This document shows, piece by piece, positions 39,485 to 62,976 of a DNA stretch of 64,000 nt (the stretch's first letter is position 1; each line of letters begins with the position of its first letter). The notes beneath the pieces were generated by a model, which worked only from the letters and a program-made list of their open reading frames with translations, made no database searches and was not told where the DNA came from. Position numbers and translations under genes: made by a program. Source of the DNA: Diphasiastrum complanatum (lineage: Eukaryota; Streptophyta; Lycopodiopsida; Lycopodiales; Lycopodiaceae); assembly GCA_029204225.1 (NCBI GenBank), contig CM055104.1, forward strand, positions 54,168,538 through 54,232,537, written 5' to 3'.

Positions 39485-41094
39485 TCATAACACCTCATAA
39501 AGATCCAGTAAGGTGTGGTGAAGTTCACACATGCTAAAAACTTCACAAAGAGTCCAAACATGCACATTTTTCAAGGGAATAGACAATACTGGCTTCCAGT
39601 TTGGATTTGCATTTTCTCTAGTAATTTTTGTATTTCTAGTTACATCTTTTGTCATTTTCATGCAGTATAAACAAGGATGTTTAGATGTAGCACTGTGAGA
39701 GACATTATACATGTATTTCAATGTTTTTAAATTACCTACTAAGTGCCATTCAACTTTGAAGTCTCCAACTCCTAGAACATTGAGAAATCCTCCTTCCATA
39801 TGGTCCTTGATGATCCTAGGGTAAGATGTCCTAGAGAATATATCGTGATTCTCCTTCAGTACCTGTCCAATGAATAAAACCAACTTAGTTAATAAACCTA
39901 GGTAAGGAATAAAACTTAGTTAATAAAGAAAATAATTACCTGAAAAGCTGCCAACCACCATATATCATTTTTGGACTAGACACTAAATCTGAAGTCTCCT
40001 TGTTCCACTGTTTGTGATAGTGCACCATTCATGAGAGTTATACTAACTCTCTCCATCTTTTGCCCTTTCACAATCTCTGACTCATCTAACTTAAGTACTA
40101 TGATTATTTTACCATTCACCTTTTTTAAGGTTATATCATAAAATGTGACCATGTATTTTAACAAATGATTTAGATCAACAAAGAAGTTGTTTGATGAATT
40201 ATATGATATGGATCTTCCATCAGTTTCATACACTTCCTCAATATGAAATGGAGTACCAATGCTTTTATGCATACTTAAGTTTAATGTATTTCTCTCTGTC
40301 TTCAAGTGATATGACCTAGAGATAGGGACTTTTCTAATTTGAACTTGCTTAAAAGCATCCCTAATAAGTTGAAATATTGTTGAATATGCTTCTTTGCTAA
40401 TACTAGCAAAATCACAGGCACCCTGAACTATAGTCTTATCTAAATTTTTTTGAATGTCTAGCATCAAAGACTCTGGAATTTTGGACTTTACATTGGAACT
40501 CCTATTGTTCATCATGATACACTCAATGGATTTGCTTATCAATATTGAGCCCAACGACATTCCAATTGATGCATTGTCCTTTATATTCTGATGAGCTACT
40601 AATGCAAATCTAGAAAAAAAACAAGATAGTGAGCATAATAGCACATTAGTAGATATAAAACCATATGTCATTAATCAAGTTACAAAAAATCAGAGTATGC
40701 TTGAATGTTTAAATTCTTCTATTTTGATAACCTCCTTTTGAAAGGGTCTGAATATCCTTGCAACTTTGCTGCTTTCGCTTCTTACTCCTAGTCTCCTTCT
40801 TAGCCTCTTCCACATCCTTCAATAATTGCAAGTTTTCCATATGCATAGATTGTAAGATTAATTGCATTTGATCTAGTTATGATTTGATATCAAACATTGT
40901 TTTCTATGATGATTCATTATTCTTCTGTAATGATTCATTATTTTTTTCCAGTTACGATCAGCAGTAGATATTGGAACTCCTTTGCCTCCTTGTTTTTGTA
41001 TAGGTGCCAAATCATTAGGGATATCCATATGTAGATGATACAATATCGTCATTAGATAAAACAAGACAAAACAAATCAGTACAAAACAAAACAA
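39485..41094 (-). pseudogene. Unclassified transposase-like gene, copy 1
   Basis: Minus-strand exon 1 (41094-40690) is basic (IPNDLAPIQKQGGKGVP, KKETRSKKRKQQSCKD). Exon 2 (about 40620-39957) contains ISKEAYSTIFQLIRDAFKQV, FHIEEVYETDG, IIIVLKLDESEIVKGQKMER and VSITLMNGALSQ, ending WWLAAFQ at a GTAATT donor. Exon 3 after TTGGACAG contains VLKENHDIFSR, IIKDHMEGGFLNVLGVGDF, VEWHLVGNLKTLKYMY, SKHPCLYCMKMTKD and PNWKPVLSIPLKNVHVW. Copy 2 at 54.4-56.15 kb matches residue by residue with the same intron. The strand-Asp-strand pattern (VLKLDE), the G-D/N-LK motif and a CxxC finger suggest an RNase-H-fold (DDE) transposase; this is inference. The second Asp is Asn here, a TAG breaks exon 2, and the C-terminus is missing after NVHVWTLC. 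Confidence 0.6.
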
Positions 41095-43244: not shown

Positions 43245-44260
43245 TGTTGGATTAGTCTCCTTCTTGCTAATCGACTAATCGATTTAATCTTCATCCATTG
43301 TTTATCCAGTTCTACGGATTTTCCCGTGTTCTTTTACAATCTGCATATTTACAAGTGTTTTTACATAGTCTGTAGAAATACACGAAGTTTGACTACAGTG
43401 TGGCATTTCATTTTCTCTCACTTCAGCTTTTTCGTTTGTTAAGAATCTCGTGTAAAATCACAGTGTCATATTTTTTGCATTTCTGCGACACTGTCACTTG
43501 TGGCTGTTTTAGTTCATTTCTATAGAAGTGACAGTTTGGTTCATTTATATAGACAGACTGTTTACGGCCAATTTCCACCACTTATCAAGCAATCAATGAC
43601 AAGGAACCAGATGGATGTCAGCGGACACCAGCCAACGGGCAATCATAATTGATGACCTAAGTTTTTAGTATAAATAGCTGTCCATATTCATACATTTTTA
43701 TTATCAGAAGAAGCATTTGAATAGTTAGTTCTCTCTCTCTCAAGCCTGCGAGCTTGATACTCCTGAGCATTCTAGCTCACTTCTTAGAGTTGTTTTAGAG
43801 ATTATTGCGCTAGTGGTTATCATCATTGCGCTTAATTCAGACTCAGTCGTTTAGAGATAGCATAGAGTATGCGACTTCGATCTGCAACTTACAGTACCCA
43901 TTTACTTCTGTTTCGTTTTTCATACTGAATCAATACTATCTTTTATTGCGTTCAACTTCGTCTCAGAATGTATGTGTTTTTGTAGTTCTTCGTGACAAAT
44001 TATTTGTCTGATAATTCAATGCATTATTGTTTGGCTACGTAATCACTATAGTACTGATGATTTCAAAGTTAGTTATATAAGATCAAACATGATTTCTATC
44101 ACTATTGTTTTGTTTGAAATTGGTAGGTGTAGTCATGCATAGAGAAAGAGGAAGATAGTTTATTCTACCACACACAAAAAGTTTTTCTTTCTAGACACTC
44201 GAATTATTTTCATTCATTTCTTTTCGAGTTTGACCTTCTTCTGCACACCTCTTTCCGACA
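43245..44260 (+). repeat. 5' LTR of copia family 3
   Basis: Begins TGTTGGATTAGTCTCC and ends CTTTCCGACA immediately before TGGTATCAGAGCC. 1016 bp. A TATA-like AGTATAAATAG lies near 43668. Confidence 0.9.
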
Positions 44261-44273
44261 TGGTATCAGAGCC
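44261..44273 (+). promoter_or_regulatory. Primer binding site, copia family 3
   Basis: TGGTATCAGAGCC, a perfect initiator-Met tRNA complement, directly after the LTR CA. Confidence 0.92.
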
Positions 44274-44424
44274 AAATCTCTAATACTTGATATATTTTGT
44301 GATATCAAGTTGATAATGATACTCTTCAGTTCTTTTTCAACCTTTCAGTATCATAGAATTGATTTCCTATTGTTGGCATTATTGCTTCTTAGCGTCATCG
44401 ATACAATCGACAGACTAAGTTCTA

Positions 44425-47400
44425 GATGGATTCTCAAAGTAAACCTGGTCTTGTCGCAGACAAGCTGCATGGATCCAATTATCATTTGTGGATATTTAAG
44501 ATGAAGACCTTTCTAATCACCAATAAATTATGGGATGTTGTTATAGGTACAGAAGTAAAACCTGAAGACGATGACTCAAAGTGAAAATAAAAAAAAGTTA
44601 AAGCTTTCGCGCTTATTATCCTCAATATATCAGATACACAGATTGGACACATACAATCACATTAGCCAATTTAAGAATCTCTTGCAATAGATGGCTACTA
44701 TCGGATCAGTCATAGATGATCAAGACACAATTATGACATTGCTTTCAAGCTTGTCCTCTACATATGAGAACTGGGTGATGATTATATAAACACACTCAAA
44801 TCTATGATCTCTTACTAGAGTTATCACTATGTTGCTACAAGAAGATAATCGAAGAAGTCAGAACATTTTGTCTACTTTCTTCTCTCAGGCTCTATATGTC
44901 AACAAGGGCTCTAAGCAACAGAAGCAGAAAAGCTCCAAGAAGGCTGCAACGAATTAGAAGCAAACTCAAAGTCAAGCACAATCATCAGATCCACAATCGA
45001 AAAAGATGTTTTGCAAGTATTGCAAGCACAATAACCATGAGATCAAGCATTGCCGAATTCTCCAAGCAAAGAACACAGCCAAGCAACCTGATCAACAATC
45101 AAACACAGTTTCATCATCTACCCAAGTCGAAGTGGACAAAGGTGCATTTATGGTCAACAATCAAAGCCCATTTTTGGATGATTCATGGTTTCTGGATTTT
45201 GGAGCAACTCAACATATGACCAATCAATGTGAGATTTTCAACTCCTACATGCCTTACAGCAAGAAGAAATTTGTTCATCTTGGTGACAATAGTACTCACA
45301 TAATTGAAGGTTAAGGTACTGTAAGATTGCGATTTCAACATGATCAATTCAAATTACTATCAAAGGCCTTATATGTTCCTTAACTCTCTACAAATCTGTT
45401 ATCAGTAAGTAGAATTACAAATTTAGGTCGTAAGGTAGAATTTGAATATGATCAATGCAAAATTAGTGATAGGAGTAATCAGATCCTTGCACTCGGTAAG
45501 AGGCGGAGTTACTTATATAGATTGGCACATTGTTATTCTGAGTTTAGTCAAGCATTGAAAATCTCTGTTCTAGTCAATAAAGCATTACTATGGCATCATC
45601 ACTTAGGACACTTGAATTATGCATCTGTTTTGAACATGTCCAGACAATCCATGGTTCTTGATTTCGACTATCCTTCTGGTAAGGTCGATCTCCCTGTCTA
45701 TCATAGCTGCATCTTTGGAAAGCAGGCTAAAATTCCTTTTAGATCAAACCATAGGCATGCAGCAAAAGATCTGTTAGATGTTGTTCATACAGATATATGT
45801 GGATCTATGAAAACCCCTTCATTGCTAGATGCAAAGTATTTCATTACTTTTATTGACAACCAGAAGAACAGTTGTTTATTTCAGACAATTCAAAGAGCAT
45901 GCTGAGAATCAAATTGGCAAAAGAATCAAAGCACTAAGGTCAGATAACGGGGGAGAATACATCTCCACCAAATTCAAGGAGTATTGCCTTAACAACGACA
46001 TTGAGCAACAATACGTTACCTCATATTCGCCTTAGTCAAATGGTCTTGCTGAGAGAAAGAACATAACCTTAGTTGAATCGACAAAGTGCATGTTATCAAA
46101 TGCGACACTTCCAAAGTCCTTCTAGGCTATAGGTATTTCAATAGCAACCTATATTCAGAATAGATGTCCTACTAAAGGCCTCTCAGACAAAACACCATTC
46201 GAAGTTTGGACAGGTACCAAACCTTCTTTATCAAACTTACGAGTTTTTGGATGTACTGCTTTTGCACAAATTCCTCGCGATCTCAGGATAATGCTTGACT
46301 TCCAAAGTATAAAATGTGTTTTCATCAGCTACACTACTTCAGATCAAGCCTACAAGTTGTTTGATCTCATCGAGTCGAAGATGTTCACTAGTCGGGATGT
46401 CATCTTCATCGAAGATCAGTTTCAAGACCTCAAAAGAAAGGGCAGTCCCCATGTAGCCGACCTATTAGATTCTCCTGACACATTGAACTTTCCAGTTCCT
46501 CAGTCGACTATTCCCATAGAATATTCAAGCTCTTCTACTTCCGACGAACAACACAAATCAACGGCAAATCAGAAAATGATATTGTTGCAGTTCAACAACT
46601 ACAATATGATGGAAATGATCAACCTCCTCTATTATCCAGAAGATCATCAAGATCTAGCAGACCACCTCACAGGTATATCGACGAATTTGTAGCCTACCTT
46701 GTTCAGGAACCCACGTCTATCCAAGAGACACTCAGTCAACCTGATTCAGATCTCTAGAAAGAAGCTATGGATAAAGAGTATTCATCTCTTATCAAGAACC
46801 AGACATGGACAATTGTCAAATTACCTGCTAGCAGAAATGTAGTTGATTGCAAATGGATTTTTAAAGTCAAGTACAATGAAGATGGAAGCATCAACAAAAG
46901 AAAGGCACAACTTGTCGCCATAGGATTTTCTCATGTATACAACGTCGATTACACTGAGACCTTTAGTCCTGTGATCAAACATTCTTCTATTCGACTTTTG
47001 CTATCATTTGTCGCTGCATCAGATTTGGAAATATATCAAATGGATGTACAGACACATATCTCAATGGAGTTATCGAAGAAGACATTTACATGGTGCAACC
47101 TGAAGGTTATATTATCGAGGGTAAACACAATCATGTGTGTAAACTCCATAAGGCACTTTATGGCTTGAAGCAATCTGCTCGAGCATGGTTTCAAAGGATC
47201 AATACGTTCCTCATTGATCAGGGCTACATAACTAGCTCTTTAGACTCAAACGTTTACTTCAAAGTAGTACAACAATCTTTTATCTTTATCACTTTATACG
47301 TGGATGATATATTACTTTTCAGCAAAAGTACCGATCTGATGAAAGAGGCCAAGACAATGCTATCTTCCGAATTCGACATGGCTGATCTGGATGAAGCTCA

Positions 47401-48293
47401 TTTCTGCCTCGGTATACAAATCCACAGAGACAAAATAAAAAGTGGTTTACATTACACAACATAGGTACATCTACAACATGTTAGTCAGATATAATTTAAT
47501 TAATTGCAAGTTAGCTCTCTCACCAATGGAACTAGATCTCAAATTGTCAAAGGACTAGTGTCCCCAAACAATTCATGAGAAACAACAGATGCGTGAGTAT
47601 CCTTACCATTATAGTATAGGATATCTTATGTACGCCATGATCTGTACCAGGCCAGACATAACTTTTGCAGTCAGCTCTCTCAGTCAGTTTATGACTAATC
47701 TTGGTGTTACACATTGGAAGGCTCTTATCAGAGTCATGAGATATCTTCGAGCTACTATGGACTTTTTCATTTGTTATGGAGGAGTCAGCAACGACAAACT
47801 CAATTTACATAGTGGTTACACAGACGCAAGTTGGGCAGGAGAGGTAGACACTCGTAAATCTACTTACGGATTTACATTCTTCCTCAACAATGGTCCAATT
47901 TCTTGGAACAGTCGTAGGCAACCTTCAATAGCTCTGTCTTCCACTGAATTAGAGTATATCGCAGCCTCTCAAGCTACAAAGGAAGCAATTTGGTTGAGGA
48001 ATTTGCTCTCAGATATCTGTTTGAATCAATATGCCCCGACGACATTATTTTGTGATTATCAAAGTGCCATCGCTTTATCAGCCAGCCCTAGATTTCATTC
48101 TAGGAGTAAGCACATTGAAATGAAGTATCATTTCATCAGAAGCAAAGTTTTCAATGAAGAAGTCAGATTGCAGTACTGCAAAACACAAGATATGACAACA
48201 GATATATTTATCAAAGCATTAAGTTTGGATACACACAAAAGATTCTGTGTAGAAATAAGTTTGAAGGTCAAGGCATTCAAGGATTCAGATTAA
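44425..48293 (+). pseudogene. Decayed gag-pol of copia family 3
   Basis: Gag starts MDSQSKPGLVADKLHGSNYH at 44425. The zinc knuckle CKYCKHNNHEIKHC is near 45009. In the protease the DSG Ser is lost (WFLDFGATQHMT near 45190). Integrase has WHHHLGHLNY, VHTDICGSM and LRSDNGGEYIS. RT has CKWIFKVKYNEDGS and LYVDDILLF (near 47300). RNase H has GYTDASWAGEVDTRKS and SSTELEYIAASQATKE, then FHSRSKHIEMKYHFI. At least six stops (for example TAG near 46036 and TAG near 46126) and several frameshifts break it. Domain order is complete, so the element was once autonomous. Confidence 0.92.
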
Positions 48294-48300
48294 GGGGAAG

Positions 48301-49255
48301 TGTTGGATTAGTCTCCTTCTTACTAATCAAGTAATCGGTTTTAATCTTCATCTATTATCTATCTAGTTCTGCAGATTTTTTTATGTTCTTTTACAGTCTG
48401 CAAATTTACAAGTGTTTTTACACAGTCTGCAGAAATACACGGAGTTTGACTATAGTGTCGCATTTCATTTTCTCTCACTTCGGCATTTTCGTCTGTCAAG
48501 AATCTTGTGTAAAATGACAGTGTCGTATTTTTTGCATTTTAGCGATACTGTCGTCTATCAAGATTTCCTAGCAAATATGCAAAGTCACATTTTTTGTTTT
48601 TTTCAAAGTGCATATTAAGGAAATGACTCTGGCAAAGTGTAGGGCTACTCTAAATGGGATTTAAGGACACTGTCAATTTTTTCGCAAAAAAACCAACACT
48701 ATCACTTTTTGCGACACTATTGCCTATGGCTATTTTACTTCATTTCTGCAAAAGTGACAATTTGGTTCATTTATGCAGACAGACTGTTTACGACCAATTT
48801 CCACCACTTATCAAGGAACCGGATGGATGCCAACGGACACTAGCCAACTGGCAATCACAATTGATGACCTAATTTCTTAGTATATAATAGTTGTTCATAT
48901 TCATACATTTTTATTATCAAAAGAAGCATTTGAATAGTTAGCTCTCTCTCTCAAGCCTGCAAGCTTGAACACTCACGAGCATTCTAGCTCACTTCTTAGA
49001 GTTGTTTTAGAAATTGCTATTGCGCTACTGCTTTATCAACATTGCGCTTAATTTAGACTTAGTCACTCAGAGATAGCATAGAGTACGCGGCTTCGATCCA
49101 CAACTTACACTACTCATTTAGTTTTGTTTTGTTTTTCATACTGAATCAATACTATCTTTTATTGCATTCAGCTTCTCTCAAAATGTATGCATTTCTGTAG
49201 CTCTTCGTGACAAATTATTTGTCTAATAATTCAATGGATTATTGTTTGGCTACGT
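48301..49255 (+). repeat. 3' LTR of copia family 3, rearranged
   Basis: Starts TGTTGGATTAGTCTCC after the purine tract. Compared with the 5' LTR it has about 160 extra bp near 48551-48710 and stops matching after TTTGGCTACGT at 49255, lacking the last ~220 bp of the 5' LTR. Confidence 0.82.
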
Positions 49256-49924: not shown

Positions 49925-51956
49925 AGCAGTGTCTATCTACTATAATCTCGCCTTCCTCTGTTTCGGGAAGGGCCTCAATGCCTTTTAAGACAAGAGGACT
50001 CTCTGTTATAATATCACCTTCCCAGTGTATTAGGAAGGACTTCTATTCCTTTTTTATCATATATAATAAGATCTGCATCCTGAGCAATCTGAAAGGCTGT
50101 TAAAGTAGGAGCAGCTTGCCTTTGAGGGCCCTCGATCTCAAGTGCAACGCTTACACCGTTCTGGGCATAGGTTCTGATCAACTCTTGCCGAAATATATAT
50201 ACATCGTCAGGAGTATACGCCTCAAGAGTGAACTGTCAACACAAAACACGAGAATCAGCAAATTACAAACAATGATAGTAAAAAAATATGAATCAGAATG
50301 AAATGAACTACAAATGAGCAGAATATCACATTTTTAATATCTACATCCACTTGTAAATTATACCACTCAAAAAATAACTTTGTATTGTATAGGACGAACC
50401 ATGCAAAACTAAAAATGTTTTTTTGTTGTACACACTGCATATATAGAACAAAAACTAGTAATATTATATTAGAAAATTTATTTATGCTATGATGATAGAT
50501 TTGAACTAAAAAGAAATACATGCATATCAGAGATAAATTGAATATACCTTGAGAGATCTAATGGTTATCTCTCCAATTGAGGTTGCCGTTGTTGGTATCC
50601 CAAACAACATTATGAAGTAGAGAATCAAATTCTCTGTGTATTTGCAGCTGAGTTTAATTTTACACATAAAAAATTTGATACTCCCTCCTTATTTATCTTT
50701 ACAGAAAGAATGTTCAGGCTCCAATGCCGACTACAACAACCAAAATACAAATATCAATAAATCCATACTTATAAAAGCAATGCTGCATGCAACAATCCAG
50801 ATTAAAGCAACAAAAATAAAAGAGCAATCCTTACTTATTTTCATATGGAATCAAATAAAATTTCGCCATAGGTTTGCATTCGATAAAATATACAGCCTTC
50901 TCAAAATTGGCTTCTTTTGCCTTTATCGCTCCCATGAAAAAAGGACTAACAACAAAAACTATACCATGGGAATCGGAACTAATACTATTCTGCAAAAAAG
51001 ATACTTCGGCTTCTACTATTACATTTTAATTTATGAAGTTTTACCTTTTAGCTCGGCACAAAATTTGGACCTAATCTAAAGCTTTTACGTGAATTCGGAA
51101 GAAAAAAATCAAAAAAATTGTTGAGAAGATCAATTTTATTAGCTAGGTAGGCCTCGTACTGGTTATAATGGTCAGAATCAAAATAAACTTCGACATGATC
51201 GTATGGAATTCTTACAACAAGATTATGTAAAGGAACAAAAGAAGTAGATACAATATTTATAGATTTCTCTGTTATTTTGTCGAGCTCCTCTTGGGTAATC
51301 AACACTTTTGGTGAAGAAATCTGCTGAGGAGCTAGACGAATAACAGGAAGAGGAAGGGGCAAAGATTCTCGATCTGAATCAGATTCTCCAACATCTGACT
51401 CAGAGCTCAGAACGATCCGGGGTCTCTTGGCTGGGATAACTCTAGGAGGAAGGGAAGCAACTGGCCTTTGAGATCCAGCCTTCTTGGGGACAGGCTGCTT
51501 CCTCTTCCTCCTAGAGGTAGTCAACAAGTTGGTTCTATTTAGAGGCATGTCTTTTGAAGTGTTGGCGTTATCAACATGTAGACTAGAAAAACGGTCCCTA
51601 AGTCTTCGAAGAATGACGAAATCTTTTGGCATGATGGTGACACACTTACCATGCATTGTCAAAAGACAAGTATCCTCAAAAAACTGGGATACAAAATCTT
51701 CTGCAGCACTTTGTAAGGCCTGTATGGCTGTCACGGCAAACCGAACATTCAGCCCAAGTGACAGAGTGACATTCCTTACAAATCGGCTGAAAGGTGCTCT
51801 AGGGATCAACAGTTCAGTTGATCTCTGAAGTTTTCTAATCTCCCTCAGCCAAACCTGCTTTCTGCCATGTCTACGGCCAGTACCAGGGGAAACACGAGCA
51901 TGGGATAGCTATACAGTGGTTATGGCATGGGTAGTGGATTCTGTTCTGGCCATCAT
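49925..51956 (-). pseudogene. Histone H3-like protein with long C-terminal extension, multi-exon
   Basis: From ATG 51953 the minus frame reads MARTESTTHAITTV, TAG, then LSHARVSPGTGRRHGRKQVW and an H3 fold without indels: LREIRKLQRSTELLI (alphaN), PFSRFVRNV (alpha1), NVRFAVTAIQALQSAAEDFV and SQFFEDTCLLTMHG (alpha2), KCVTIMPKDFVILRRLRDRF (alpha3). H3 histones pair with H4 in the nucleosome core. His113 and Asp123 of the H3-H3' contact, Arg83 and the MPKD loop are kept; Arg116 is Cys and Cys110 is Leu. The tail lacks K4 (Glu) and any ARKS. Loop 1 has canonical H3 length, unlike CENH3. A ~179-residue extension follows with basic patches (TSRRKRKQPVPKKAG, AKRPR) and SSESDVGESDSDRE. After a TAA at 51050, splice-like exons (50989-50835, 50730-50548, 50232-49925) stay mostly open, for example FTLEAYTPDDVYIFRQELIR. 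The TAG at codon 15, the TAA and a phase mismatch suggest decay. Confidence 0.75.
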
Positions 51957-52022
51957 TCTGAGAAGAAAAAAATAACAAATTTTTTTTAAACAAAAGCGTA
52001 GGGAATAAATACCAGAATTGAA

Positions 52023-52696
52023 TATCGGTTTCGAGCGCAAGATATACACAGAATATTTTAAGAAATGAGATGCGCGCTCGAAAGCAATATTGGACTATCA
52101 GCGGTATCGGTCTCGAGTGCACTATGAGAAGGCAGACGATTAAACGGTGAGAGGGCATGTTTGAGAGCGATATTGAGAGCAAAAACCAAAAATCTTGCGA
52201 AAAAAATTGAAAATTCTGAGGTCTTCTATATACGAAATTTTTGCACGTGTGAAAAGACGGTCGAAGACACGTGTCGTCATCTGATTGGTCCATGTGGAAT
52301 GTCCGTATTGACAATGATGACCTGATTATGAGGCCACGTGGGTTGGAACGCATGCACGAAGCCTTTTCGACGCGTGTCATTCTCGCACGTGACAGATGTC
52401 AGATCAATCATTGTCTGTATGACGTATCAATTCTGACCAATCATACGTCAACATGTGTTCCTTTGTAACTCCTCCACACGTGCAAATTTTTTATAAACAG
52501 GTCATTTTCGGCTAGGATTTTCATGCAAAATTATGATTTCTTGGCCGAATATCGATTTCAAGTGCGCCATTTGCACTGATTACCCTTTGTTGACTAACTT
52601 GCATCTGGAACCGATACTGCCTCGGCCGGATCACATTCAGACGTGCCTTACATCTGGTTTCTTGTCTGATTTTTGTCACGCGCTCGGAGCCGATAC
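52023..52696. promoter_or_regulatory. Palindromic divergent promoter (H3-like gene / plus-strand gene)
   Basis: The region is an imperfect dyad centred between 52362 and 52363. Mirrored pairs are GACAATGAT 52310-52318 and ATCATTGTC 52407-52415; ATTGG 52284-52288 and CCAAT 52437-52441; TTTGCACGTGTG 52240-52251 and CACACGTGCAAA 52475-52486; TATATA 52227-52232 and TATAAA 52492-52497. All four pairs give the same centre within a base. Each half is a complete core promoter pointing outward: CCAAT, then ACGTCA/CATGTG-type boxes, CACACGTGCAAA, then TATA. The left half faces the H3-like gene and the right half faces the gene at 53011. Both would be expressed together. Confidence 0.8.
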
Positions 52697-52780
52697 TCTA
52701 ATTTTTAATATCTCTTTCGAGCACACATTGCCTTGAGTTTCTTGTTTGACCTGCAATTTGCGCCTGAGAGCGATATTTGG
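52023..52780. repeat. Array of a ~17-bp motif, consensus TATCGSTTTCGAGCGCA
   Basis: Copies in plus orientation: 52023-52040, 52105-52122, 52550-52568, 52709-52726, and a weak one at 52629-52647. In minus orientation: 52072-52090, 52156-52173, 52601-52617, 52677-52696, 52759-52780. Typical forms are TATCGGTTTCGAGCGCAA, TATCGGTCTCGAGTGCAC and, reversed, CGCGCTCGGAGCCGATAC. They lie downstream of each TATA box and most pair up across the palindrome centre. Such dispersed, two-orientation motif clusters are how En/Spm-type transposases mark their own DNA, but the binding factor here is unknown. Confidence 0.75.
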
Positions 52781-53010
52781 AATTTTACATTTGTATTTTT
52801 TGTTTGAAATATCTAATTTGGATTCTAGTTTGCTTTCTTTTTTTCATGAATTTGGTATTACTGATAGTTTGGAGTATTTCAAATCTCTTTTTTCTCCTTT
52901 TCTTTTTATTTTTCCTTCTATTAGGGTCCTGGTGTGGAGGCATTTTTTGAAATAATCTCAAATTTAAGTCCCTGCTCAGTACTCCATTATTCAGATCTCA
53001 AAATAAGGAC

Positions 53011-54313
53011 ATGATTCATTATTAGGACCTGGTGGCAATCGACAAGCATATCTATAAAGCTAAGTTTGACAGAATGTTCACCAAGTTACATAATAATTTC
53101 AAGTCTGTCAATGAGTGCCCAATTCACAATAAAAAATGTAGATTTGTTGATTTTCAGTCTACATTTGTTTTTTTTCTTTTGTTAAATATTTCTGACGATT
53201 TAGAAGCTGTCCCTTCAACTTTTGAAGTTGCTTCTTCCAGTGGTACAAAGTCTAAAAAGTCAAAGATTGTAAATATAGATACTTTTTTTTTATTGATACG
53301 AGTATTAATTTAGATGATTGTTTAGATTTTAATCCTGCTCGACATAGGGCATCGTTTATAGGCCCTAGAACACCCACTACCCTTTCTCCTTCTGATAAAT
53401 CTTTAATCACTTTGCCTACTTATAATATAGATAATAATTCTTTTTTGACAATATCAGATCTTTTTTATTCCATTGAAGGTGAGACTCTTTGCATTTTGAG
53501 CAAAGAGCTTGATGAATTTTTGGATATAATTGATTTTGATGCTGATGATCTTCTCCTTGGTGTTGACGCTGTACATAATGATAAGTTTTATTCAGGGAAA
53601 GATTGCTTGAAAATGGCTGTGGAGGAGATGCGCAACAAAGAAGATGATCTACCTTCTAAGGAGGAGTTTCTCAGAATCCAAAGTAAACTTGGTTTTCCAC
53701 AACCAACTGTCTATTCACCAACAATATTGACATCGAAAGGTGGACATAATATTGATGGAGAGATAGGTAATCAGGGAAGACAAAGCCGAATGCGTAAGTT
53801 TTTGTATCTTATCATGTACTAGTACATACGTTATGTCAGATTATATACTGGATCTTACTTTGTTTTTTATCATTTCAGAAAATAATTTTCTTTGATGATT
53901 TCGCAATTCGTCGAGGAGGACAGGGATCTTCTATTGGAGACTTTTCAAGAGATCATGCACTGGAGCATCTGAAGTTCTTCAAGAATAATGAGATAAGTGT
54001 TGCCCATTCAAAGTTTCATCAACATGGTGAGACTATGATTATGGCAATCAAGGCACTATCTCATTTTCTTGGAGGACATAATTTCAATAAGGTGCATAAA
54101 ATAATTTTTGTAAAGAAAACCATTGTGGTTAGAATTTTAGGATATGGACCAGTGAAATTCATGTTCAGATAATCTCATTTTGTATTATATGCTGCTTACG
54201 TTGATCCGAGTAAGCATGGAAACTATGAGCTGTTGGATCCATACAAAAGAAAAATATTGTTGCATGATTCTAAGTTGCAACTTTCATTGGAAAAATTATC
54301 GGAAGCAATCTAG
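53011..54313 (+). pseudogene. Unrecognised gene divergent from the H3-like gene
   Basis: From ATG 53011 the frame reads MIHY, TAG, DLVAIDKHIYKAKFDRMF, then VNECPIHNKKCRF (a CPxHxxxC patch). It shifts one base at a T-run near 53290 and continues DTSINLDDCLDFNPARHR, RTPTTLSPSDKSLITLP, then acidic sequence ELDEFLDIIDFDADDLLLG and SGKDCLKMAVEEMRNKEDDL to a GTAAGT donor at 53794. An 85-nt intron ends at TCATTTCAG (53878). The second exon has FFDDFAIRRGGQGSSIGDF, MAIKALSHFLGGHNF, a TAA, then HFVLYAAYVDPSKHGNYELL and DPYKRKILL, ending at TAG 54311. The HFV...LLDP block looks like the His/Asp half of a papain-fold peptidase; that is only a resemblance. Joining the exons costs one frame step. It ends about 60 bp from the convergent transposase-like gene. 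Confidence 0.5.
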
Positions 54314-54373
54314 ATACTGCTGAATTGTACTTTGTAAATATTTTTATTTAATATACAAAATTTTATTGTGTGT

Positions 54374-56155
54374 CTATTGCCTACTAGCTTGTATAAATTT
54401 GCATGTTTTTTGAATTTTTTTATAATCCGTCGATTTTGTATTATGACGAATTTGGATTCTTTTGTAAGACCATTGAAAAAGTTGTAGTATATAGCTGTTT
54501 TTTATGCTAGTCCCACCATGTTGTGTACTTTTATGAAATGCCGCGCTTACTTGCCAATGAGAAATTTCCATTCCTTGTGATGACCATATCCTAAGACTTT
54601 CACTATGTCTTGCAAAGAATGTCGAATGATGTCGTAATATGTGTTGCATGTCATAAAAACATAATCTAAATCAGTACCAAAAGTGTCTAATTTAATTGCA
54701 CATATTTGTCTATCGTAGTGTAACATCGAAATCTTACCATATAATGTGTTATATGATCAACACCCCATGCACTTTGAACTGCATCCAAAAATTCACTGGT
54801 TGTTTCCTGTATCATTTGTACATCAGCATTTGAAGATTTATTTTTTCTCAAGTATTTCACCATGTTGTCTAACTTTTTCCAAACTTCTACTTTGTGTATA
54901 CGAGTAGAACCTTTTTCTTCAAAATCTTGAGTTGCTGCAATAATTTCTTTCCAAACCGTGTATTGAATCTTGGATTGTTTGCCAGAATAATTTGATAAAA
55001 ATCTTTGAGCTTTTGGATCCTCCAATGCTTGGCTTGCATGAAATATTTCCCGTTTTACCTGATAGCTTGTCATCTTTTTAACGTGGCCTTTATGTAAGTC
55101 TATTTTGGACAACACATCCTCTAATATGAAAATAGCTTCCTTCGTAGAACCCTTTGACTCGGAATTCCATGCAAACAAGATGTGAAGATATATTATTTTT
55201 TCTATAATATGCACCTCCGCATGCAATGTACAGATATGAACATTTCGAAGAGGAATCGGTAGTAGAGGTTTCCAATTAGGATCTTCTCGATCTCTTGATA
55301 TTCTTGTACTCCTTGTCATGTCTTTTGCTATTTTCATGCAGTACAGACAAGGGTGTTTAGAGTTAGCGCCTCTAATGCACAGAACATATATTTTATGGTC
55401 TTCAGATCTCCTCCTAAATGCCATTCAATGTTGAAAGTGCCAATTCCAAGAATATTGAGTGGAACTCCCTCCATGTGATTTTTTATGGTGGCAAGATATG
55501 ACATTCTATTAAATATCCATGAGAGAATGTCATGGTCTTCTTTCATCACCTATAAGAGAATACAAAAACGTGATTAGCCTCATAATATTAACATAGAGAA
55601 GATTTCCCAAATGGAATCCATATTCAAATGATTATCCCTATTTATTATGTGAAGGAACTGCTATACTTGAAATGCTGCCAACCACCAAATCTCATTTTCT
55701 GATTGAACACTGAAATTGAGGCCTTCTGAGTCTTCTGAATTTGAAAGTGCTCCATTCATGATCGCAAGACTGACTCTTTCTATTTTTTGTCCTTTTATAA
55801 TTTCAAACTCATCTAACTTGAGAACAACTATCAACTTGTTATTGACATTCTCATTTGTAATACCGTAAAAATTTATGATGAATGTTAGTAACTGATTAAT
55901 GTCAATAAATAAACTGTTGGAATTCTTATAAGCTAGACTTTCTCCTTTTGAGCAATACACTTCATTGATATGAGATGGATTACCAACTATTGTCTACATA
56001 ACTTGGTTTAACATGTCTTTTTTTTTTTTTAAGATGAAATGGTCATGGGATTGGAAACTTTTTAATATTTACCTATGCAAATGTCTCCTTTATCATCTTA
56101 AACATTGTTGCATATGCTTCCCTACGCACCAGTGAAGTTTGATGTGACTAAACTA
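54374..56155 (-). pseudogene. Unclassified transposase-like gene, copy 2 (5' end cut off)
   Basis: Minus-strand sequence from about 56155 parallels copy 1: RREAYATMFKMIKETFA, then PSHINEVYCSKGESLAY, LIVVLKLDEFEIIKGQKIER, VSLAIMNGALSNSED and WWLAAFQ at a GTATAG donor. The acceptor CTCTTATAG is in the same place as in copy 1, then VMKEDHDILSW and IEWHLGGDLKTIKYMF (Asp kept). A frame change follows, then SKHPCLYCMKIAKDMTRSTR, PNWKPLLPIPLRNVHICTL and a long alpha-helical region. After another shift come LRIWSSQGMEISHWQ and AAFHKSTQHGG near the end, where the Glu is a candidate third acidic residue. So D-D-E candidates are all present, as inference. Stops include TAGs near 56080 and 56010. The 5' part is removed by a copia insertion at 56140. 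Confidence 0.6.
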
Positions 56156-56670
56156 AGGTGCATTCATTTACATGGAAAGTAGTGGAGACAGATGCGTAAA
56201 AAAGCTAGAAAATGATATTATAACTACTTTATAGTTATTTTCTCTCTCCTGCATGGCATTTATTTTACGGTCGTCTTTGGGCCCATATTTTCTCTAATGT
56301 TTGTTTCGTTTCATCTTGTCTCGTTGGAGAGGCTGATTGATCTTGTCGTGAATTCTTTCACTTTGTTTCACGATCTCTATGCTCCCAACATGAATCAATG
56401 TCAGAGCTCATTTAAGTTTCGCTTCGCTTCGCTTTGTTTCATTTTCATCTAGATTTTGTCTCGTTTCATTTCGTTGTGTTACAGAGCCTGATTGATCTCA
56501 GAGGCTCCCTTCAGTGTGATAAATGGAACCAAATCCAACATGATTTTTTTCTCGAACAGAAATAATTCAAGTTTTGCAAAACTGTTGGTGAATCGTTCGA
56601 GAGACCTTTCATCAGTTTATCACCAGAGTTCTAGCTAGAATTTGCATTTTTGGGCGTATTTTTTGCATCA
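56140..56670 (+). repeat. 5' LTR of interrupted copia element (family 4)
   Basis: Begins TGATGTGACTAAAC and ends TTTTTTGCATCA; the ends TGATG/CATCA are a perfect inverted repeat. It is 531 bp and is followed by TGGTATTAGAGCA, a primer-site variant, at 56672. It interrupts transposase-like copy 2. The partner LTR lies outside the window. Confidence 0.72.
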
Positions 56671-56818
56671 GTGGTATTAGAGCATACCTTGTCATAATAT
56701 GACATAGCCAAAAAGCTATCAGATCCAAGGGGCTAAGCATTCAAACAAACAATCATCAACAAATGAACACAAATTCAGAAGCAATGGCTTCAATCAGCAA
56801 CATACAATCCAAGATCTG
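56671..56818 (+). mobile_element. Leader and gag start of copia family 4, left of the nested element
   Basis: Primer-site variant TGGTATTAGAGCA at 56672-56684, then leader, then gag ATG at 56784 (MASISNIQSKI). After 11-12 codons it is broken by intact copia element 2. The last five bases, ATCTG, are the target duplicate. Confidence 0.8.
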
Positions 56819-57500
56819 TGTTAAAAATTCACAATTCTAGCTTGACTAGTTTTGGTCATATGACTTGTAAATAGTTAGATGGTCATGATGTGGCTTGTCA
56901 CACGTGCCAAATAGCATAGTATTCCATTCATAAGGATGTTCTCAAGTAGACCTAAGTGTTAGAACCTTTGGAATGAGTCCAAATTATGCTTAGATACAAG
57001 GGAGAAAAAATAGGAGCTATTTTTGGTAATTTTTGCATTGTTGAGGGATCTCCAAGATTCCAACCCTAACTTGGTAGGGATGAAAGATCCACCAAAATTA
57101 GCATTAGGGATAGGTTTAGGGCTACTCATACCTACCCAAAACCGTGATGGATCATGTATATATAGGTGATGATATCTCACCAAAATCAATCAAGCAATTT
57201 CATGATTTTTCTCTCATAATGGTGCAATTGCTCTCTATGTTCATAATTGTTTGAGTACTTGTGATTACTAATGATTATAGGATTGAATGTAGGTCTGGTG
57301 TACAGTACTCAGACTGTGGGAGGCCGTACTTTCACACGTGTGAAGCCTTCTTCAAGGATTTGGGCCATTTAGTGAGGTTCAAGCATAGATTTTTGATGGA
57401 TTTTGATGGTTCAACTTGTGCTAATCTTATGAAATCATAATCTATTGTTTCCCTCATCATTTCAAGTGTTTTAGGATCCTTATTTGCTGTAATTTTTACA
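56819..57500 (+). repeat. 5' LTR of copia element 2
   Basis: TGTTAAAAATTCAC to TTTTTACA, with a TATA box TATATATA at 57157-57164 and the palindrome TTCACACGTGTGAA near 57330. Confidence 0.95.
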
Positions 57501-57513
57501 TGGTATCAGAGCC
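57501..57513 (+). promoter_or_regulatory. Primer binding site, element 2
   Basis: TGGTATCAGAGCC, perfect to the plant initiator-Met tRNA end, directly after the LTR. Confidence 0.93.
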
Positions 57514-58311
57514 TAAAGGTTGAAATGAGCTAAATCCTTGGTTTTCATTCAATTTGATCACAATTTTTTATCTAAATCTTGTGTAGATTGGATCTTAGCA
57601 TCTAGTATTGATTCTAGAACTCAAAGTGAGTCAAATACATTGGAGATTGGTGTTGTGTGACTTCATTTGCAGGTGTTTAGGTGTCTAAAACCAGAGGCAA
57701 AGTTGAATTCAATTCACATTACCAAGATAGCAAGTTTTGCTTGCTCCAAGCATTGATTTCTAAGCGAGTTTTGGAGGTGATTTCATAGAGGAGGCTTTCT
57801 AGCATTCAAGGAGAGGGAAGATCAAAGTTTTGGGGACTCTTCAAGGCTGTTCTAAGGTGTAGTAGGCACCTCCTAAAGTGATTTAGGTTCAGTCCAACCA
57901 TTGCTTGACTTATGCACCAAATTAGATCAATTTTTCATCAATTTTGATCATTTTTTGCTTGTGATTGGATAGTAGATTGTGTTGCATCCTCATTAAGTTC
58001 CATTTAGATCTTTTACAAGTGATTTTGGAAGTATATTAGGTTGCTGAAATTCACTCTTGATCAGATCATTTGGAAGCTTTAATGTTCTTTATAGAAAGAG
58101 GGGCAATTCTACTAGTATTGTCTACTTCAATCAAGCAAGTGCATTGTTTCTAGTATTCTATGATTTGATTTTGTTAGAGATCATTATTAGATCTTTATAG
58201 GAAGTCTATTACTGATCTTTTCAGGTCCCTAAGAAGTGGGATAAGGTAGACCTTCAATCAAATCAATAGAAGTAACCTTCATTTGTGTCAAGTCCTTGAT
58301 TAGGAGACTAG

Positions 58312-61300
58312 ATGGCATCTATAAATGCATATCTTTTGGATACTAATGAAAGGCTCAACAAAACTAACTATTCCATATGGAAAGTTAGAATGGAATCTAT
58401 CATGATCATGCAAGATCTGATGGAAATTGTAAATGGTAAGGAGGGTGAACCTATTCATCCTAAAGAAAAAGCCAAATACATCAAGAGGTGCAATGTTGCA
58501 CTACATTGCATAAAAATGAATGTTGCAAATGAACTCTTAAGAGAGGTAGGAGATTGCACTTCAGCTCAAGATGCTTGGGAGACTTTGCAAAAGGTCTATG
58601 AATCCAAGAACCAAACTAGAATGTTAGCTTTGAAGAATCAAATCTATAGAAGCTATCAAAAGAAAGGAGAGAGTGCACATACTTTTGTCCTAAGAGTAAA
58701 GGAATTGAACAAAGAGCTAGCCTTTATAGGTGACCCTATCAAGGATGAAGAGCTTGTTCAACTCATATTGAATGGACTAAGCTTTGAATTTGACAATTTG
58801 GTTCAGGGATATGCAATTATGGGTAAGCTACCCATACTTGAAGAACTCCAAGGCACACTCATGGCCGAGGAATCAAGAAGGAGCCAAATGCAAGAGAGGA
58901 TGGATAGGCTTTCCATCCAAGGTGGAGATGACCAAGCTCTCTTCACCAAAGGCAAAGGCAAGTCCAAAGGCAAAGGATCAACATTCAAGAAGTCTACAAA
59001 GCTTGAGGATCAAGAAGGACCCCCAAAGGCATCTCCATCAACCACCAAAGTCAAGAAGGACAAATCAAAGGTGAAGTGCTACTATTGTAGCAAGATGGGG
59101 CATTATGCCTCAGAATGCTTCAAGAGGAAGCAAGATCAAAGCCAAGCCAACATGAGCAAAGAGGAGGAGGAGGAGAGTTCACATGAGGACTCTCTCATGA
59201 TGTCCATATTTTCTTCAACAAGCTTCAAAGGAGAAGATCCTTGGTGGATTGACTCGGGTGCTAGTTCACACATGACTAGTAAAAGGGAGTTTTTCTCTTC
59301 TCTCTTATCTTATGATGGACCTATAAAGTCTATCTATACAGCAAATGATGAAGCTTGTAAGATTGAAGGAGTTGGTAGCATTCCCCTTTGCTTAGGATCT
59401 TCCAAAAAGATCAACATAGAAGGTGTTTTGTACATTCCTACAATAACAAAGAATCTACTAAGTGTTGGCCAAATGGTAGACAATGGTTTCAATGATGACT
59501 TTGCTTCAAATGAATGTTTCATCAAGAAGAAGGGTAAGATAGTGGCTAAGGGCACTAGACTTGGCAAACTTTATAAGCTGGATGCATTTGTGGATACTAA
59601 TGTTGTCATGTTGGCCGAGAAGAGCAAGATATCTACCTTTACTTTATGGCACAAAAGACTTGGACATGTCAACTCGGGTTCCATGGAGGCTATGATCAAG
59701 GAGGAGTATGCTTTAGGCCTACCAAGGTCTATTGGGAAGGAAGACAAGGTTTGTGAAGCTTGTGCCTTATCCAAGGCACATAAGAAGGTGTTTCCTAACT
59801 CCATCACAAAGTCATCTCATCCTCTTGAACTCATACACTCGGATGTGCACATTGCTAGCACCAAATCTAATGGAGGTTCATCCATGTTTTTAACCTTCAT
59901 TGATGACTACTCAAGATATTGTTGGGTGTTCTTACTTTCCTTCAAGTCTCAAGTATTTGATACTTTTGTAAAGTTCAAGTTGTTTGTGGAAAAGCATCAT
60001 AATCATAGCATCAAGATTCTTAGAAGTGACAATGGTGGAGAATTCATCTCCAATGAGTTCAAGGCCTTTTGTGAGGAGGAAGGGATCAAGAAAGAGACTT
60101 CTTGTCCTTACACTCCTCAACAAAATGGAGTTGCTGAAAGAAGGAATAGAACATTATGTGAATGTTCTAAGGCTTTAAGATTAGATGCTTGTTTGCCCAA
60201 ATCCTTTTGGGGTGAGTCTCTTGTATGTGCAAACTACTTGATGAATAGGGTGTCTTGCAAAGCAATTGAAGGCAAAACTCCTTATGAGATGTTGTATGGA
60301 AAGAAACCCAATCTTAATCACTTGAAAGTTTTTGGGTGTATATGTTATGTGCATGTGCCATTAGAAACAAGAACCAAGGAGGATCCATCTTCCACAAGAG
60401 GGATCATGCTTGGATATGCAAGCTCAAGCAAGGGCTACAAAGTCTATCTTCCATCCTTGAACAAATTTGTTGTTTCAAGGGATGTCATCTTTGATGAACA
60501 TCATATGCATATGCTTGAAGAAGGCTCAAGTGCTCCAACAATCAAGAAGAAGATGGCCGAGGAGCAAGATCTTGGTTTTGAGGAGGAGCTCATGGAGGAG
60601 CAAGCACCAAACCCACCTATCACACCAAGGAGATCTTCAAGGGAAAAAGTGGAGCCATCAAGGCTCACATATCAAGGCAAAGGACAGCAAGTTGAGGGTA
60701 TCTCATCCACTTCTTATGCTTTATCTAGTTTTGAAGAACCGTCTAATGTTGAAGATGCATTGAACTCCAAAGAATGGTATAAAGCTATGTTGGATGAGTA
60801 TGATGCCTTGATTGAGAATGAAACTTGGTTGCTTGTTGAGAGACCTCAAAGGAATGTAATAGGATGCAAGTGGGTCTTCAAGCTTAAGTTGAATGCAAAT
60901 GGGAGTGTTAACAAACATAAAGCAAGATTAGTTGCAAAAGGTTATGCTCAAGAGAGAGGGATAGACTATGAGGAAACTTTTGCACCCGTGGCCAAGATGG
61001 TCACAATAAGACTAATCATTGCACTTGCATCACATTTTGGATGGATTCTATGTCAAATGGATGTCTCTAATGCTTTCTTGAATGGTTTTTTGGAAGAGGA
61101 TATCTATATGGAGCAGCCACAAGGGTTCATCAAGCATGGAATGGAGAACAAAGTATGCCATCTCCAAAGAAGCATCTATGGCTTGAAGCAAGCCTCGAGA
61201 TCTTGGAATTCAAGACTACATTGCTATCTTATTTCACTTTCTTTTGTTCAAAGTGAATATGATCCCACTCTTTACATTAAGTTTGATGATGTTGGTATTG

Positions 61301-62280
61301 TACTTTTACTCATTTATGTAGATGACATCATCATTAGTGGAAATAGTGTTGATGGTATTGAAAAAATCAAGATAGATCTATCCTTAGAGTTCAAGATGGT
61401 AGATCTAGGGTGTCTTCACTTCATCTTAGGCATAGAAGTACTTAGAGGGTCTGATTTTATCTTTATAAGTCAAGTAAACTATGCTCAAAGTCTTTTGAAG
61501 AAGTTTAAGATGGAAGTATGCAAAAGTGTTGACACACCAATGGAGCAAGATGTAAAAGTGCCAAATGAAGATGATGAAAGATCCTTCATGGACATCACTT
61601 TGTTTAGGCAACTTATAGGTTCCTTAATGTGGATCACTATAACTAGACCAGATCTTAGCTTTAGTGTATGTAGGTTGAGCCAATCCATGCAAAAGCCATT
61701 GAATATCCATTGGAAAAAGGCTAAGAGGATTCTAAGATACATCTCGGGTACATTGGATTTTGGGATTCTATATAGAGGAGATGTGATTAACCTTCATGCA
61801 TTTAGTGATTCAGATTTTGCAGGGGACAAGAGGGATAGGAAATCAACAAGTGCCTATTCAACTTTCATAGGAGAAGGTGTGGTTTCATGGCTTTCAAAAA
61901 AGCAAGAAACTATATCTCTATCTTCAACCGAGGCCGAGTACAAAGCTTTGACAACCACTACAAAGGAGGTACTTTGGATCAAGAGATTATTGGTGGAACT
62001 AAATATCATGGATTCAGAGGAGGCACCAATCATCTACAATGACAATATATCAGCCCAACACCTTGCATCTAACCCAATCTTCCATGCAAGATCTAAGCAC
62101 ATTGAGATATGCCATCACTTTGTGAGAGAAATGGTGCAAGCCAAGGAGATTGCTTTGGAGCATGTTCCAAGCAATGGATGTGTAGCTGATCTACTTACTA
62201 AACCACTTCAAAAGACACCTTTTATGAAGTTCAGATCATCACTTGGAGTGATTAGTAAAGCAATGATTGAACCAAGCTAG
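58312..62280 (+). CDS. Copia gag-pol polyprotein, element 2 (1322 aa)
   Basis: One unbroken frame collinear with element 1 without gaps. The zinc knuckle is at Cys256, the protease DSG at 314, the integrase triad at Asp511, Asp573 and Glu609, and the RT YVDD at 1002-1005. RNase H motifs SDSDFAGDK and STEAEYKAL are present. Differences from element 1 are single residues, for example Tyr7 for Cys, Asp for Val in the NGFN(V/D)DFAS segment, and Gly for Glu in SN(E/G)CVAD near the C-terminus. Expression would start from the 5' LTR TATA box. Copia elements usually make extra gag by splicing or from a shorter RNA; I see no frameshift site because gag and pol are fused. Confidence 0.97.
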   Translation: MASINAYLLDTNERLNKTNYSIWKVRMESIMIMQDLMEIVNGKEGEPIHPKEKAKYIKRCNVALHCIKMNVANELLREVGDCTSAQDAWETLQKVYESKNQTRMLALKNQIYRSYQKKGESAHTFVLRVKELNKELAFIGDPIKDEELVQLILNGLSFEFDNLVQGYAIMGKLPILEELQGTLMAEESRRSQMQERMDRLSIQGGDDQALFTKGKGKSKGKGSTFKKSTKLEDQEGPPKASPSTTKVKKDKSKVKCYYCSKMGHYASECFKRKQDQSQANMSKEEEEESSHEDSLMMSIFSSTSFKGEDPWWIDSGASSHMTSKREFFSSLLSYDGPIKSIYTANDEACKIEGVGSIPLCLGSSKKINIEGVLYIPTITKNLLSVGQMVDNGFNDDFASNECFIKKKGKIVAKGTRLGKLYKLDAFVDTNVVMLAEKSKISTFTLWHKRLGHVNSGSMEAMIKEEYALGLPRSIGKEDKVCEACALSKAHKKVFPNSITKSSHPLELIHSDVHIASTKSNGGSSMFLTFIDDYSRYCWVFLLSFKSQVFDTFVKFKLFVEKHHNHSIKILRSDNGGEFISNEFKAFCEEEGIKKETSCPYTPQQNGVAERRNRTLCECSKALRLDACLPKSFWGESLVCANYLMNRVSCKAIEGKTPYEMLYGKKPNLNHLKVFGCICYVHVPLETRTKEDPSSTRGIMLGYASSSKGYKVYLPSLNKFVVSRDVIFDEHHMHMLEEGSSAPTIKKKMAEEQDLGFEEELMEEQAPNPPITPRRSSREKVEPSRLTYQGKGQQVEGISSTSYALSSFEEPSNVEDALNSKEWYKAMLDEYDALIENETWLLVERPQRNVIGCKWVFKLKLNANGSVNKHKARLVAKGYAQERGIDYEETFAPVAKMVTIRLIIALASHFGWILCQMDVSNAFLNGFLEEDIYMEQPQGFIKHGMENKVCHLQRSIYGLKQASRSWNSRLHCYLISLSFVQSEYDPTLYIKFDDVGIVLLLIYVDDIIISGNSVDGIEKIKIDLSLEFKMVDLGCLHFILGIEVLRGSDFIFISQVNYAQSLLKKFKMEVCKSVDTPMEQDVKVPNEDDERSFMDITLFRQLIGSLMWITITRPDLSFSVCRLSQSMQKPLNIHWKKAKRILRYISGTLDFGILYRGDVINLHAFSDSDFAGDKRDRKSTSAYSTFIGEGVVSWLSKKQETISLSSTEAEYKALTTTTKEVLWIKRLLVELNIMDSEEAPIIYNDNISAQHLASNPIFHARSKHIEICHHFVREMVQAKEIALEHVPSNGCVADLLTKPLQKTPFMKFRSSLGVISKAMIEPS

Positions 62281-62294
62281 ATAGTGAGGAGGAG

Positions 62295-62976
62295 TGTTAA
62301 AAATTCACAATTCTAGCTTGACTAGTTTTGGTCATATGACTTGTAAATAGTTAGATGGTCATGATGTGGCTTGTCACACGTGCCAAATAGCATAGTATTC
62401 CATTCATAAGGATGTTCTCAAGTAGACCTAAGTGTTAGAACCTTTGGAATGAGTCCAAATTATGCTTAGATACAAGGGAGAAAAAATAGGAGCTATTTTT
62501 GGTAATTTTTGCATTGTTGAGGGATCTCCAAGATTCCAACCCTAACTTGGTAGGGATGAAAGATCCACCAAAATTAGCATTAGGGATAGGTTTAGGGCTA
62601 CTCATACCTGCCCAAAACCGTGATGGATCATGTATATATAGGTGATGATATCTCACCAAAATCAATCAAGCAATTTCATGATTTTTCTCTCATAATGGTG
62701 CAATTGCTCTCTATGTTCATAATTGTTTGAGTACTTGTGATTACTAATGATTATAGGATTGAATGTAGGTCTGGTGTACAGTACTCAGACTGTGGGAGGC
62801 CGTACTTTCACACGTGTGAAGCCTTCTTCAAGGATTTGGGCCATTTAGTGAGGTTCAAGCATAGATTTTTGATGGATTTTGATGGTTCAACTTGTGCTAA
62901 TCTTATGAAATCATAATCTATTGTTTCCCTCATCATTTCAAGTGTTTTAGGATCCTTATTTGCTGTAATTTTTACA
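62295..62976 (+). repeat. 3' LTR of copia element 2
   Basis: 682 bp, TG...CA, followed by ATCTG, the right target duplicate. Confidence 0.96.

Follow-up and report, generated by a model that had tools for sequence, protein, structure and literature searches.

A histone H3-like gene with a putative Ulp1-type domain carried by a DNA transposon family of Diphasiastrum complanatum

Does a plant mobile element carry its own histone H3? The question is raised by a locus in the window analyzed here (a 64,000-nucleotide stretch of Diphasiastrum complanatum DNA), where a preliminary description reported an H3 fold running into a long C-terminal extension within transposon DNA. We conclude with high confidence that the locus belongs to a four-gene element with inverted ends, one gene of which joins an H3 fold to a C48-like domain and is partly constrained. 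The parts of the window copy are collected in Table 1. The preliminary description had overlooked three of its features, namely the transposon ends, the Ulp1-like domain, and a stop (TAG) at codon 16.

Table 1. Parts of the element copy in the window
Feature	Position	Strand	Remark
Truncated element copy	49934..56299	-	Lacks ORF D and the 3' inverted repeat
5' terminal inverted repeat, CATTAGAGAAA...	56269..56299	-	Sharp boundary, the same in L041, L061, and L065
Transposase-like gene remnant	54690..56129	-	Motifs D...D-CxxC...HxxxxH...E, assigned by eye
ORF B	52957..54320	+	Strand opposite to H3-Ulp; homologues of its C-terminal part occur in family B repeats
H3-Ulp exon 1, from the H3-like tail through fold and linker into the Ulp1-like domain	50835..51956	-	
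Histone fold, alphaN to alpha3	51597..51854	-	Within exon 1
H3-Ulp exon 2, HW motif (catalytic His)	50548..50730	-	Frameshifted in window copy
H3-Ulp exon 3, QQ....C motif	50330..50434	-	Cys to Phe in window copy (FSFAWF)
H3-Ulp exon 4	49935..50232	-	Truncated and frameshifted in window copy

The histone fold and its C-terminal extension

The minus-strand frame starting at position 51956 matched Pfam PF00125 (86.5 bits, E 2.2e-24). Among the best 60 of 178 PDB matches, the fold of another copy (L015) retrieved H3 chains at an E value of ~1e-20, with H3 and CENP-A chains scoring nearly equally (77.0 versus 75.8 bits). An AlphaFold model of a stop-free exon 1 (L035) was of modest confidence (mean pLDDT, 45; fold blocks, 55 to 83) and yielded a histone fold only, with helices at residues 33-50, 56-66, 75-104, and 110-126; elsewhere, confident structure was scarce. 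Foldseek searches with this model placed nucleosome entries at the top (best 50 of 150 matches). The earlier assignment to H3 is thus upheld, as are several of its details: loop 1 is of H3 length in the family to which the window copy belongs (family A; one residue longer in the diverged copy L053), K79 is replaced by Gly, and His113 (25/25 copies) and Asp123 are kept. Sequence comparison likewise agreed that the canonical tail is absent, both ARKS sites (K9 and K27) being missing. Because the first 8 residues alone are H3-like, we refer to the protein as an H3-like variant.

The commonest N-terminal residues over the copies are MMARTKSTARAITTVQ, and the H3-like start ARTKSTAR is widely kept. 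Residues were counted over 25 copies (30 read copies minus 5 near-duplicates), in which Lys occupies position 4 in all but three (22/25), the exceptions having Glu (2) or Arg (1); the change of K4 to Glu described earlier is therefore real in the window copy but not a feature of the family. The same holds for Arg116 to Cys, which is present in the window copy, while across the family this position is Arg in 16/25 copies and Cys in 3.

A long C-terminal extension, in which basic and Ser/Asp/Glu-rich parts occur, follows the fold without interruption. When the genome was searched with the 286-residue frame at 51048-51908, 136 of 8,533 candidates were scored, and all 136 share the extension, which is therefore real; most matches span residues 2 to 284, and those outside the window are 73 to 84% identical. 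A chance fusion or a single-copy pseudogene, the outcome that the preliminary description had set against its own proposal, is rejected on these counts and on the presence of the H3 part in 3/3 elements defined by their ends (see below). No stop occurs in the matched part of 21 of the 136 rows, the window included (counted from the table). The suggested search for intact copies with the extension thus recovered the extension throughout, but no H3-Ulp gene was intact over all four exons in the 30 copies read with 1.5-kb flanks. The largest stop class among copies is CAG to TAG (26), a pattern that fits the decay of methylated CHG sites. As the noncoding 3' flank of several copies is itself 89 to 100% alike in most pairs, likeness between copies does not by itself show constraint.

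The gene, referred to here as H3-Ulp, is split into four exons at GT-AG junctions. Its product of ~585 residues is the sum of the 467 residues from L015 exons 1 to 3 and the 118 from L021 exon 4, which ends ...KLIE before the stop. In L015, exons 1 to 3 join in phase across GTAAGG...GCAG and GTATAT...GCAG, and exon 4 follows GTAATA...GACAG. Three introns had been proposed from the window sequence. The junction 50835/50730 fits the boundary between exons 1 and 2, and both sites of 50548/50232 fit as well, but the exon between them (50434-50330) had been missed. The proposed intron 51045/50989 does not hold, as other copies read through it in frame, and the window copy therefore carries a frameshift there. 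The expectation that the gene runs on into further exons was borne out by three more, which lead through the Ulp1-like domain.

The encoded protein thus comprises an H3-like tail end, the histone fold, a basic/acidic linker, an Ulp1-like cysteine-protease domain (the end of exon 1 with exons 2 and 3), and a C-terminal tail. With the splice of L015 itself, the sole Pfam match up to an E value of 1 was PF02902 (E 0.0048, 17.2 bits), which covers the His and Cys motifs; at 17.2 to 17.5 bits, this copy does not reach the gathering cutoff of 20.7 bits. A mosaic row scored 19.0 bits against the same cutoff, and PF02902 matched 4/11 alignment rows (best E, 0.0039). A profile built from the 11 rows gave 6 PDB matches up to an E value of 10, all of them SENP2 or SENP8 except for 1 match to RAP1; the best was SENP2 (E 0.0095), in an alignment that ends just beyond the His motif and leaves the Cys outside.

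Among copies with letters at the respective positions, the catalytic His is kept in 21/22, the first Gln in 18/19, the second Gln in 19/19, and the Cys in 19/20, the single loss of Cys being that of the window copy. The spacing of 70 residues between His and Cys and of 6 between Gln and Cys is what we take to be that of SENP2 numbering. At the position of the catalytic Asp, as placed by our own alignment, 21/23 copies with letters have Asn (LNS versus the expected LDS). Because His, Gln, and Cys are kept but the acidic residue is replaced, we call the domain C48-like and its activity putative; judged from these sequence matches, assignment to C48 (Ulp1) is likely. A diverged homologue (~30% identity) of the N-terminal half of this Ulp1-like region lies at L040:2052-2390 on the minus strand, and no H3 was found beside it.

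The window copy of the H3-Ulp element is dead and decayed, and a working gene at this locus is not supported. Its TAG at codon 16 (51911-51909) falls between MARTESTTHAITTV and LSHARV; across copies this codon encodes Gln in 18/25 and is a stop in 5/25. Frameshifts occur in exon 1, exon 2, and exon 4, the Cys of exon 3 has become Phe, and the gene is truncated.

The element and its relatives

Comparison of flanks gave sharp element ends, ...GGGCTCTAAGTTTCTCTAATG at the 3' side and CATTAGAGAAAATATGGGCCC... at the 5' side, the latter at 56299 in the window. The ends form imperfect inverted repeats (25/31 bases alike between the 5' end of the L041 type and the inverted 3' end). With up to 3 mismatches, the genome contains 1,274 left (5') ends (639/635 by strand) and 1,197 right (3') ends (601/596 by strand), and reversed controls gave 0 in both searches. 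The family is thereby identified as a DNA transposon with inverted ends, since many copies terminate sharply in these repeats. At least 14 exact 3' ends lie within ~1.8 Mb at C1:48.4-50.2 Mb, a possible cluster.

Elements were also delimited by their ends only, as pairs of exact ends among those listed, on the same strand and within ~12 kb, picked by eye. One pair (C2:45465672) had been found before, whereas the other three, of 8.9, 9.3, and 10.7 kb, were new. All three new elements contain the H3 part at the expected place; the extension could be read in two, and in the third the stretch ends inside the fold. Conversely, three copies were selected for having H3 and an exact 3' end; in two of them a left end lies 8.5 or 10.6 kb away from the right end, and in the third (C4) none was seen within the 2.8 kb examined. 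Element length is thus 8.5 to 10.7 kb over 5 end pairs. The earlier suggestion that a mobile element with a transposase-like gene carries the H3 is supported by these end-defined elements. With the H3 gene forward, the gene order is transposase-like gene, ORF B, H3-Ulp, and ORF D, of which ORF B and ORF D lie in reverse and the other two in forward orientation.

A target-site duplication of 2 to 12 bases was found at 0/5 end pairs, and no known superfamily is therefore assigned. Recombination between copies could hide such duplications; 0/5 is nonetheless notable. The transposase-like gene, ORF B, and ORF D have no Pfam match above the cutoff (only subthreshold matches of unrelated kinds), and a profile of the transposase-like gene matched nothing in the PDB up to an E value of 10. 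Known groups were considered by scanning the broken gene pieces. An hAT element is rejected for lack of a match to the hAT dimerization domain or DUF659 and of an 8-bp duplication; CACTA is rejected because Transposase_21 was not matched and the ends read CATTAG; MULE/VANDAL is rejected, with neither a MULE transposase domain nor a duplication of ~9 bp.

Of the element, the window preserves the left end, ORF B, a transposase-like gene with an internal deletion relative to other copies (junction 56125/56127), and H3-Ulp in truncated form. Similarity to other copies ends at ~49934, within exon 4, and a different repeat adjoins at 49934-49940. A copia-like element (recognized by eye) at ~43245-49255 also adjoins the region; it is merely a neighbor, and an origin of the H3 locus in an LTR retroelement is rejected. 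Further copia-type elements (also by eye), with unbroken frames of 1,322 residues, lie at 56787-63057, where identical 300-base repeats flank the frame, and at 27814-31782. The window also contains a related, diverged transposase-like gene (39485-40674, minus strand; 50 to 67% amino acid identity in aligned pieces) and, at 34820-35179, a fragment of a CACTA-type tnp2 transposase (PF02992, E 1.4e-4, under the cutoff).

Diverged relatives occur in the same genome. L053 represents a diverged subfamily with a transposase piece, H3 fold, Ulp1-type extension, and ORF D; its extension has DHW at the start of exon 2, the middle piece of its ORF D is 63% identical, and the frame ahead of its fold reads MDRRKQTRRD, which is likewise like the start of H3. 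The association of H3 with the extension and ORF D thus predates the present copies. In a second repeat family (family B, eight loci: L044-L047 and L049-L052), an H3 fold ends a proline-rich protein, and a homologue of the C-terminal part of ORF B lies on the opposite strand at 8/8 loci (33 to 38% identity; E 2e-9 to 0.002). Several frames at these eight loci are long and open. A third type, L048, has diverged H3-like stretches at 411-698 and 2462-2800; the broken frames of the latter, near the end of the locus, include ARAKQTTRAD. A tree of 15 rows joined L053 to family A (97/94) and L048 to family B (89/81). Its split of transposon rows from H3 and CENH3 was weak (77/86), and four reference rows were typed from recall; judged from these sequences, the H3 tree appears too weak for deciding the origin.

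Selection and the possible role of the protein

dN/dS was estimated from 24 of the 30 copies with 95% codon bootstrap intervals and neutral values from one simulated set; all values include decay after insertion. The fold (0.33 [0.21-0.50] versus a simulated neutral value of 0.61), the linker (0.50 [0.35-0.71] versus 0.88), and residues 301-369 (0.36 [0.25-0.52] versus 0.63) are constrained by this comparison, and the histone fold is under purifying selection. Residues 236-300 gave 0.47 versus 0.59, without bootstrap. The tail (0.52 [0.28-0.96] versus 0.75), exon 2 (0.64 [0.40-1.15] versus 0.58), exon 3 (0.30 [0.14-0.66] versus 0.46), and exon 4 (0.83 [0.61-1.12] versus 0.88) are each, taken alone, not distinguishable from the neutral simulation with 24 copies. 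Pieces of ORF B gave 0.42 (12 copies), 0.47 (7 copies), and 0.32 (4 copies), and one transposase piece gave 0.35 (3 copies), all without a simulated neutral value.

We see about an even chance that H3-Ulp is a transposon-encoded H3 variant and deSUMOylase that would act on chromatin for the element. The histone fold would pair with H4 and place the protein in or on nucleosomes, and its ARTK tail end may be recognized in the manner of H3K4. SUMO or a related modifier could be stripped from nearby silencing or repair proteins by the Ulp1-like part, so that the chromatin of the element would stay open or transposition would be helped, much as the VANC/KIU proteins of VANDAL elements counter silencing. 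Such a role would probably be directed against silencing. Few transposons are known to encode anti-silencing proteins, VANC being a plant example.

Two other explanations appear unlikely. According to the first, the element took up H3 and ULP genes as passengers and copies them unused, as Pack-MULEs do. The lack of an intact copy among those read, the prominence of CAG-to-TAG stops, and the neutral appearance of exons 2 and 4 agree with this, and an hAT-borne H3 was amplified and inactivated in Pseudocercospora fijiensis, according to the cited part of that study (PMC6710886). However, passengers would not be expected to show a fold dN/dS of about half the neutral value or to keep the catalytic His and Cys; nor does unused capture sit well with the co-occurrence of H3, extension, and ORF D in the diverged subfamily or with a second family in which an H3 fold and a homologue of ORF B occur together.

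The other, which we likewise consider improbable, is that H3-Ulp would dock on nucleosomes as a factor of the transpososome or of target-site choice and so act in transposition proper, not in anti-silencing. Binding through the histone fold would supply the chromatin contact, and integration may be unusual given that target-site duplications were not found; the Ulp1-bearing VANC genes, however, act on methylation, as stated in the cited part of a 2026 review (PMC13317346). Least credible is a decoy in which the protease fold is an inactive scaffold and the protein titrates away H4, chaperones, or H3K4 readers: the replacement of the acidic catalytic residue by Asn (again by our own alignment) and an ARTK end kept despite loss of the remaining tail would suit it, but an inactive scaffold would need none of His, Gln, and Cys, all of which are kept.

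Returning to the chromatin-acting enzyme, a broader proposal can be offered tentatively, at somewhat less than even chances: plant DNA transposons without target-site duplications made an H3 variant a core gene, and one lineage fused it to a deSUMOylating protease, kept an H3K4-type tail end, and would thereby build a nucleosome-bound anti-silencing enzyme. If so, incorporation into nucleosomes, deSUMOylation, and escape from silencing would come together in a single protein; it would offer a natural tool for local chromatin change and a new view on the origins of histone variants. The family makes it testable whether a parasite can place its own histone in host chromatin.

Comparison with known elements

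H3 has already been described in hAT elements of fungi, and Ulp1 in elements of plants. Among the open-access papers listed in our searches, no report was found of an H3-Ulp1 fusion or of H3 genes in plant transposons.

Plant elements of the MULE and CACTA types contain Ulp1 domains (PMC2528002), and Ulp1-carrying VANC genes are reported to lower the methylation of related Vandals (PMC13317346); anti-silencing by VANC has been reported elsewhere (PMC5735166). The KI-MULE/VANDAL elements with VANC (KIU) and the CACTA/MULE elements with ULP are, like the present family, plant DNA transposons with an Ulp1 domain in a captured gene, KIU being one of three genes in its elements. They differ in transposase and ends, and no histone fold is mentioned in the cited parts of these sources (PMC13317346, PMC2528002); the word "histone" occurs nowhere in the 2026 review (PMC13317346).

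Other elements carry histone sequences. A Culex Helentron resembles the present family in carrying pieces of histone genes (H4/H15), but these are fragments with stops and frameshifts, the element is rolling-circle, and H3 is not among them, as far as the cited passages describe it (PMC4067079). Closer is the hAT element of P. fijiensis, which captured H3 and shares inverted ends and H3-like copies (784 in all), with a full-length set of 9.5 to 9.9 kb (PMC6710886). It differs in its 8-bp target-site duplication, in capture through a transcript or retrocopy, in truncation of 90% of its H3 copies to 71 to 100 residues, and in inactivation by RIP, and the cited part of the study describes no extension (PMC6710886).

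The hAT element of Pyrenophora tritici-repentis, with 26 copies in the reference, differs in its fungal host and its hAT dimerization domain, and no protease fusion is described in the cited part of the source (PMC3538342). It is alike in its inverted ends, transposase, central ORF, and H3-like gene, the last represented by ESTs (PMC3538342). Its H3L was called neither H3 nor CenH3 (PMC3538342).
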